Source: Pseudomonadales bacterium (GTDB lineage Bacteria > Pseudomonadota > Gammaproteobacteria > Pseudomonadales > Azotimanducaceae). From it: a DNA stretch of 64,000 nucleotides. Position numbers and translations under genes: made by a program. The notes below the pieces were generated by a model. The model worked only from the letters and a program-made list of their open reading frames with translations, ran no database searches and was not told the origin of the DNA. This document shows, piece after piece, positions 36,711-39,254 of this stretch (position 1 is the first letter of the stretch; each line of letters starts with the position of its first letter). Location of the stretch: NCBI GenBank assembly GCA_028280225.1, contig JANQMF010000031.1, forward strand, positions 1 to 64,000, in the 5' to 3' direction.

Positions 36711-37538
36711 GTGAAGACCGCTGCACACGTGGGTGTGATCGAACCTGAAGCGCTGCAAAGCCTGATGCTTGAGCCCAACACCAACTTACTGCTGGTGCAA
36801 GTCACCTCACCTGAAGTGTTCTGGCAGGCCCACATCCGGGGGGCTGTTCTGGTGACCCCGGCGGATCTGGTTTGTGGTATTCCCCCGGCCACCGGGAAGT
36901 TACCCGGCAAGGCACAACTGGAGGCGTTGTTCAGCCGGATTGGCTATACCCCGGATCGTCAAATTGTGGTTTATGACGACGAAGGCGGCGGCTGGGCCGG
37001 ACGCTTCGCGTGGACCCTGGATGTCATCGGCCACCGGAGCTGGCAGTACCTGAACGGCGGACTACACGCCTGGCCGGGTGCTCTTGAACAGGGTGATACC
37101 GGTGCCGTCCCCAGCAGGGCGAGCCAGGTTACCCTGAATCTGGACTCAGCACCCATCGCCGAACTGGAAGATGTCTTGCAAGCCATAAACGACGACAGCC
37201 AGATTATCTGGGACGTCAGGTCCGCCGCAGAATACGCGGGGACCCGTCAGGCAGCAGCGCGTTGCGGACATATTCCCGGGGCCATTAATTTTGACTGGAT
37301 GGGTTTAAAGGATGCGGTCAACAAACAACGTATTCCGGAGAATATCGAGGCTGAACTGGCACACCTTGGACTGGCGGACAAAGCGGTGATTACCCACTGC
37401 CAAACCCACCATAGATCCGGCCTGTCATATATGCTCGGCCGGGTATTTGGCTACAATATCCGCGCTTACCACGGTTCCTGGTCAGAGTGGGGGAACCGGG
37501 AGGATACCCCCGTAGAAACCGGAGCCCGCGGTGAGTGA
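36711..37538 (+). CDS. rhdA: Thiosulfate sulfurtransferase, two-domain rhodanese (RhdA-like)
   Basis: Rhodaneses move sulfane sulfur from thiosulfate to cyanide or other acceptors. Two rhodanese domains are visible in 275 residues: an inactive N-terminal one (IVVYDDEGGGWAGRFAWTLD) and a C-terminal one with the active-site loop THCQTHHRSGLSY. The catalytic Cys230 and the CQTHHR loop match RhdA of Azotobacter and Pseudomonas as I remember it. DVRSAAEYAGT and CGHIPGAINFDW are further domain signatures. The stop overlaps the start of psd by 8 bp, the same rhdA-psd order as in Pseudomonas. Confidence 0.92.
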   Translation: MKTAAHVGVIEPEALQSLMLEPNTNLLLVQVTSPEVFWQAHIRGAVLVTPADLVCGIPPATGKLPGKAQLEALFSRIGYTPDRQIVVYDDEGGGWAGRFAWTLDVIGHRSWQYLNGGLHAWPGALEQGDTGAVPSRASQVTLNLDSAPIAELEDVLQAINDDSQIIWDVRSAAEYAGTRQAAARCGHIPGAINFDWMGLKDAVNKQRIPENIEAELAHLGLADKAVITHCQTHHRSGLSYMLGRVFGYNIRAYHGSWSEWGNREDTPVETGARGE

Positions 37539-38370
37539 TTGGTTTGCCCATCTGCAAAAGCTCGTACCCCAGCATGGCTTATCACGGCTGGTGGGGGCTA
37601 TTGCCCAGTCCGAGCAACCCTGGATAAAACGCCTCTTTATCGAGCAATTTGCCAGGGTTTACGGTGTGTCCCTGGCGGAAGCCCAGGCGGAACATTTTGC
37701 AGACTATAAGAATTTTAACGACTTCTTTACCCGGGCACTGAAGCCGGATGCCCGGCCCCTGCCCGGGGACACCTCCATCATCGTCAGCCCGGCGGACGGT
37801 GCGGTCAGTCAAATGGGACCCATCAGCCGGGGGCAGTTGTGACAGGCCAAGGGTAACCGGTATTCCTTAACGGGTCTGGCAGGCGGTTTGGCCGAGGGTT
37901 TGCAGGGCGGCAACTTTTGCACTATTTACCTGGCACCCAGCGACTACCACCGGGTGCACCTGCCTTATCGCGGTGAACTGACCACCAGCCTGGCCGTGCC
38001 CGGCGCCCTGTTTTCCGTCAACGGCACCACCGAAAACGCCATTGAAGGTCTGTTCTGCCGCAACGAACGTCTCGTTTGCCGCTTCACCACGGAATTTGGG
38101 CCCATGCTGGTGATCCTGGTGGGTGCGATGATTGTGGCTTCCATAGAAACGGATTGGCTGGGGCCCGCGTCACCCTATACCAGTGAAGAACTGACCCGGC
38201 ACCAGCTCAGCTACGAAACCGGGGACGAAATAGGCCGTTTTCTGCTGGGATCAACCGTCATTTGCTGTTTTCCCAAGGGTGCGGTGACGTTGAATCCGGA
38301 TTGGCGGACCGGGACCCAGGTCCGCATGGGGGAGGGTATGGCCACCCTGAACGGTGCGGGTACTACTTAG
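37531..38370 (+). pseudogene. psd: Phosphatidylserine decarboxylase with in-frame TGA stop
   Basis: Psd converts phosphatidylserine to phosphatidylethanolamine in the inner membrane and uses a self-made pyruvoyl group. The full-length frame covers 279 codons of family-like sequence, broken only by TGA at codon 104 (37840-37842). Before it comes FADYKNFNDFFTRALKPDAR and SPADGAVSQMGPISRGQL. After it the same frame continues QAKGNRYSLTGLAGG, SDYHRVHLPYRGEL (His140, His143), GAMIVASIETDW and the self-cleavage site LLGSTVICCF (Gly240-Ser241). No other lesion is visible, so the stop is recent, suppressed, or an error. Family members have a hydrophobic residue at this position. TGA is followed by C, the weakest termination context known in bacteria. 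The gene overlaps the rhodanese gene by 8 bp. Confidence 0.88.
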
Positions 38371-38384
38371 CTTAGCGCCGGGTG

Positions 38385-39254
38385 TCAGGTGTGGGGGAAG
38401 GTGAGGACCTCGTCAATATGACTTGCACCTTGGGCCAGCATCAACAGACGATCAAAGCCAACCGCCACACCGGCGCAGCTGGGCAAACCATGCGCCAGGG
38501 CAGCCAGAAAATGGGCATCCGGAGTCACCATGCCCAGCCCACGGGCAGCGCGGACTTCATTGTCGCGGGCAAAACGGTGCTCATGTTCCTCGCCCGCCAA
38601 TAGTTCCCAGTACCCATTCGCCAGCTCAATACCCTCCACAACCAGCTCAAACCGGGCGGCGGCCGGACCATCCGCCGTGTGCCGCAGCCGGGCCAGGGCA
38701 GCCTGGTCCGGCGGATAGTCCACCACAAAGTACCGCCCCGGCAATTGCGCACAGCCTTCCGCAAAAGCCAGATCCAACTCGGCCCGGGGAGCGGACCGGG
38801 AACATCCCTGGCGCCCGGCAACAATGTCCCAATAGGTAATTTGACGGTATTCCCCCGCCCCTAAAACCATGTCCACCAGCACCTTCACCTCTGACATGAG
38901 TTGTTGGTCGTCATAGTCCAGCCGGTACCATTCCAGCAGGGTAAATTCCGGGTTGTGCAGGCGCCCTCGTTCCGCGTGGCGAAATACCGGACCCAATTGA
39001 TAACAGGATGGCATGCCGGCCGCCAGAAGCCGCTTTATGAAATACTCCGGGGAAGTTTGGAGATAGCCGTAACCGGGCACCGGAATGCTGTTGATATCCG
39101 GATCGGTGACGGTACAACGCCCCAACAAAGGGGTTTGAACTTCAACAACGTTTTGTTGCTGAAAGTAGTTGCGCACCCGGTGCAGCAACTGCGCCCGGGT
39201 AACCAGGGCGGGGATTGACGCGCCGGGTTGCCAGTCACTTGGCCCGGCTGACAT
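38385..39254 (-). CDS. epmA: EF-P--(R)-beta-lysine ligase EpmA
   Basis: EpmA is a lysyl-tRNA-synthetase paralog that attaches (R)-beta-lysine to a lysine of elongation factor P. The 289-residue length, with only the class II catalytic core and no anticodon-binding domain, is typical. Motif 2 is [20 protein letters not shown], preceded by [18 protein letters not shown]; motif 3 lies in [17 protein letters not shown]. It overlaps the efp 3' end by 20 bp, so efp and epmA form one operon. It is convergent with psd, 14 bp away. With epmB divergent next door, the whole modification pathway is grouped here. Confidence 0.96.

Follow-up and report, generated by a model that had tools for sequence, protein, structure and literature searches.

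Does a lone in-frame TGA within an otherwise ordinary phosphatidylserine decarboxylase gene (psd) mark a broken gene, a recoded one or a fault in the record? The gene lies in the window analyzed here, a 64,000-nucleotide stretch (C173:1-64000) of a 4.44 Mb draft genome of the Pseudomonadales, which comprises 242 contigs and is 96.7% complete. An earlier note on this DNA had offered sequence error, a recent null, a second psd gene or stop read-through as explanations for the stop. The list was a sensible one, and all but the second gene are weighed below.

An intact psd gene interrupted by one codon

Translation of psd yields exactly one internal stop, as the earlier note had claimed: the product reads VSDWF...RGQL up to the TGA and QAKGNRYS...FLLGST...NGAGTT from there to the terminal stop, so that the uninterrupted reading frame of Psd family members is broken at this one codon (Table 1). 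The GTG start of psd overlaps the TGA stop of the upstream rhodanese-like gene by 8 bases. The accompanying claim, that the frame is conserved on both sides of the TGA through the LLGST motif, is borne out by family matches that span the stop: the protein obtained by reading through it scores 199.1 bits against TIGR00163 (cut-off 111.75) and 188.8 bits against PF02666 (cut-off 22), and it matches the solved Psd chains 7cnw and 6l06 with E ~1e-58. The codon-usage coding score per codon is about equal on the two sides (0.26 before the stop, 0.29 after it). We take the LLGST motif, on established knowledge of the family, to be the self-cleavage site that yields the pyruvoyl cofactor.

Table 1. 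Locations of psd, its neighbors and the other in-frame TGA codons considered in this work.
Feature	Location	Strand	Basis
psd, phosphatidylserine decarboxylase proenzyme gene, one in-frame TGA	37531..38370	+	translation; TIGR00163 and PF02666 across the stop
In-frame TGA, codon 104, next base C; homologues have Phe/Leu/Ile/Met	37840..37842	+	translation, alignment
LLGST processing site, intact	38242..38256	+	translation
Rhodanese-like sulfurtransferase gene upstream of psd	36711..37538	+	ORF; name from sequence reading
EpmA/GenX-like lysyl-tRNA synthetase homologue, convergent, downstream of psd	38385..39254	-	ORF; name from sequence reading
In-frame TGA codons of at least five probable selenoprotein genes, on further contigs of this genome	L047:4340; L124:6062; L146:13210; L167:5383; L136:19472		

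The 96.7%-complete assembly holds a single copy of psd, which removes the second gene from the candidates. The gene pssA, whose product supplies the substrate of Psd, is intact (L094; TIGR00473, 116 bits, cut-off 107). With psd unique and pssA intact, true loss of Psd should cause phosphatidylserine to build up and phosphatidylethanolamine (PE) to disappear. A search of the genome for a replacement route to PE, a check proposed in the earlier note, identified none; the other CDP-alcohol transferases look PgsA-type or are without assignment, and there are also several PLD-type matches and one PF13444 protein.

Constraint on the gene and on the interrupted codon

Sixty aligned homologues have phenylalanine (34), leucine (13), isoleucine (7) or methionine (6) at the site of the TGA, and none of the 60 has cysteine, tryptophan or a stop there. 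Only one of the nine single-base neighbors of TGA, a leucine codon, encodes a residue seen at the site, and it is the codon used by three relatives (L015, L019 and L020); a single base call would thus suffice to account for the stop. The psd gene is kept in 381 of 387 good genomes of the order and in 385 of all 391 sampled, and no internal stop occurs in its other copies among the matches listed. Its nearest relatives are ~60-66% identical in protein, and neither a DNA search of the genus genomes nor the plasmids provided a near-identical sister sequence.

Six genomes of the order, with completeness of 91-96%, have no detectable psd. Two of these (G272 and G338, 95-96% complete) belong to the same family as the window, and the other four (G059, G095, G123 and G147) are all of the sampled members of family f24, suggesting a lineage-level loss of the Psd route to PE in the latter. 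In another genome, of the same genus as the window, there is only a short C-terminal psd fragment (G031:C331:3492-3632, family positions 152-197), possibly because the contig is split or the gene broken.

The window copy retains all 56 residues that are near-invariant across the order, including the 42 that lie after the stop, and differs at 2 of the 101 columns that are invariant in the genus, as against 0-14 for intact relatives when each is left out in turn. In simulations the probability that none of the 56 residues is lost falls from 0.32 at 1% neutral divergence to 0.09 at 2% and 0.03 at 3%, and hence any real inactivation must be very recent (less than ~3% neutral divergence). An old pseudogene is rejected, given that constraint is not relaxed past the stop. 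A two-part gene that restarts after the stop, for which the frame offers its first start at a TTG (37888), is not supported, as no relative is split. The pattern of constraint fits a recent mutation, an error or continued function by read-through alike.

UGA elsewhere in the genome

Using a coding score, we scanned 1.26 of the 4.44 Mb, sampled by stretches, for stops with coding sequence on both sides in one frame. This gave 114 candidates, nearly all of which proved, on inspection by eye, to be normal gene termini with another gene following in the same frame. The psd TGA is the sole unexplained interior stop recognized in the sampled sequence, and no interior TAA or TAG was recognized there. 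The remaining interior stops are all TGA and all occur in selenoprotein-type settings, in at least five genes. These include a UGSC family member (NF041046, just below the cut-off), two GrdB-like genes with the motif UPVCHQS, a carboxymuconolactone decarboxylase/AhpD-like gene with DCGYUK (a CxxU motif) and an AhpC/redoxin-like gene. In all five a hairpin of 4-7 bp with G as the first or second base of the loop lies ~17-24 nt past the UGA, with energies of -3.7 to -9.8 kcal/mol. The genome also has selA, selB (truncated by the contig end) and selD, and some of its UGA codons are very probably decoded as selenocysteine. No tRNA-Sec exceeds the cut-off in the draft assembly, for which the gap at the selB contig end is perhaps responsible; selC is possibly missing, of unusual form or within an assembly gap.

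The selA-selB operon lies at L110:8433-10936 and runs to the contig edge, and selD (L182; G000:C181:5021-5923) is part of a 753-residue open frame, which suggests a fusion with another domain. For a gammaproteobacterial draft the selenoproteome is unusually visible, and several of the hairpin loops are of the kind xGUxx.

A general reassignment of UGA to tryptophan is rejected. The release factor gene prfB is intact (489.5 bits), and TGA terminates 271 of the 814 long coding ORFs sampled from the genome, about a third, in agreement with the earlier statement that TGA is a normal stop in neighboring genes. The tRNA-Trp gene (A9, G24, a five-pair anticodon stem) is unaltered at positions 9, 24 and 27-43, and the tRNA-Trp changes linked to UGA read-through (PMC13092985) have no counterpart in it. 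The view that the code is not reassigned therefore stands for tryptophan, but it overlooked the apparent recoding to selenocysteine elsewhere in the genome.

Weighing the explanations of the psd stop

The presence of selA, selB, selD and at least five genes with selenoprotein-type TGA codons raises the prospect that the psd UGA is itself read as selenocysteine, which would make Psd a new selenoprotein. Against this, none of the 60 homologues has the cysteine that might betray such a site, there is neither a neighboring cysteine nor a redox motif, and Psd is a pyruvoyl enzyme rather than a redox enzyme. Moreover, psd has no SECIS-like hairpin ~17-24 nt past its UGA; the only hairpin of fitting geometry lies further out, at -0.2 kcal/mol, and in the minimum-energy fold the apical loop has 10 bases, the first two of them UA, contrary to the published bSECIS rules (PMC13188914). 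The absence of a hairpin is by itself mild evidence, since ~80% of random coding sites also have none (~8% reach the weakest of the five hairpins). Taken together with the missing cysteines and the absence of redox chemistry, it makes selenocysteine in Psd very unlikely. Low-level read-through by a near-cognate tRNA, mostly that for tryptophan, would mean that the TGA is real and that enough Psd is made from it, Psd being a low-abundance enzyme. The base after the TGA is indeed a C, and the earlier description of this as a leaky context agrees with the inefficient termination reported for UGA followed by C (PMC5289835). In E. coli reporters TGA is the leakiest stop, with tryptophan usually inserted; read-through reaches ~6% at one position tested, against a cited maximum of 14%, and amounts to a few percent at most leaking positions (PMC11126739). 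The site is hydrophobic in homologues, so tryptophan might be tolerated, and the coding sequence past the stop is conserved. Weighing against read-through are the tryptophan-free column of the alignment, the lack of the stop in relatives among the matches listed, the intact prfB and a tRNA-Trp gene with none of the known changes, and on balance we consider it unlikely. It is highly improbable that a genuine, fixed UGA is translated here (as tryptophan by leaky termination, or as selenocysteine) such that the amount of Psd and the PE content track the efficiency of termination. Were this the case, synthesis of the main membrane lipid would be under stop-codon read-through control, of which we found no report; searches of the literature for selenocysteine in Psd, or for UGA read-through in its gene, gave nothing that bears on this case.

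Two readings in which the stop is not decoded are left. One is a real and very recent nonsense mutation, with psd dead or crippled and the strain either living without PE or belonging to a dying lineage. The simulated 0.03 at 3% divergence bounds such an event as recent, the six of 391 genomes of the order without detectable psd, two of them from the same family, hint that loss may be tolerated, and synthesis of the ornithine-lipid type might involve the PF13444 protein. Yet pssA is intact, no replacement PE route was identified, and the genome exhibits neither wider gene decay nor a recognized interior TAA or TAG in the sampled 1.26 Mb; we regard this reading as possible but doubtful. We favor, as somewhat the likelier account, a base-call or consensus error, or a captured minor-strain allele, with the cell making normal Psd. 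Here, psd would be an ordinary gammaproteobacterial gene with a single erroneous or unrepresentative codon in its record: the TGA would have entered the draft as such an error or allele, while the cell would carry a sense codon at this position, and we infer that most cells lack the stop. The gene is unique, is intact apart from the stop and shows no trace of decay; nothing at the site points to recoding, and the source is a 242-contig draft. A single unexplained interior stop recognized in 1.26 Mb is the pattern that scattered consensus errors, and not a system, would produce; together with the expected cost of losing psd while pssA works, this makes an error or minor allele the likeliest explanation. 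On the other hand, the near absence of other false stops from the sampled part speaks for good assembly quality, which counts against an error, and a genuine mutation of recent date would look no different. The ranking, error or minor allele ahead of recent null and the latter ahead of read-through, is a matter of judgement. Although the stop does stand in the recorded sequence, we see no indication that it has a function. The case illustrates that a single codon of a draft assembly can look like the knockout of an essential gene, and that in a genome recoding UGA elsewhere a site-by-site test is needed before any stop is called recoded.

Comparison with known systems

The window gene resembles E. 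coli Psd (7cnw, 6l06; TIGR00163/PF02666) in its full-length homology, LLGST motif and order-wide near-invariant residues, and differs from it in the in-frame TGA at codon 104. It shares with the UGSC, GrdB and AhpD-like probable selenoprotein genes of the same genome a TGA inside the coding frame, but unlike them has no SECIS-like hairpin, cysteine homologue or redox motif. As in the programmed frameshift site of prfB, the TGA is followed by C; in psd, however, the same frame continues past the stop, and a programmed frameshift is accordingly rejected. Finally, we found no difference to distinguish psd from a pseudogene with one nonsense codon or from a draft-assembly error, with which it has in common an isolated stop in a conserved gene that is unshared by relatives.
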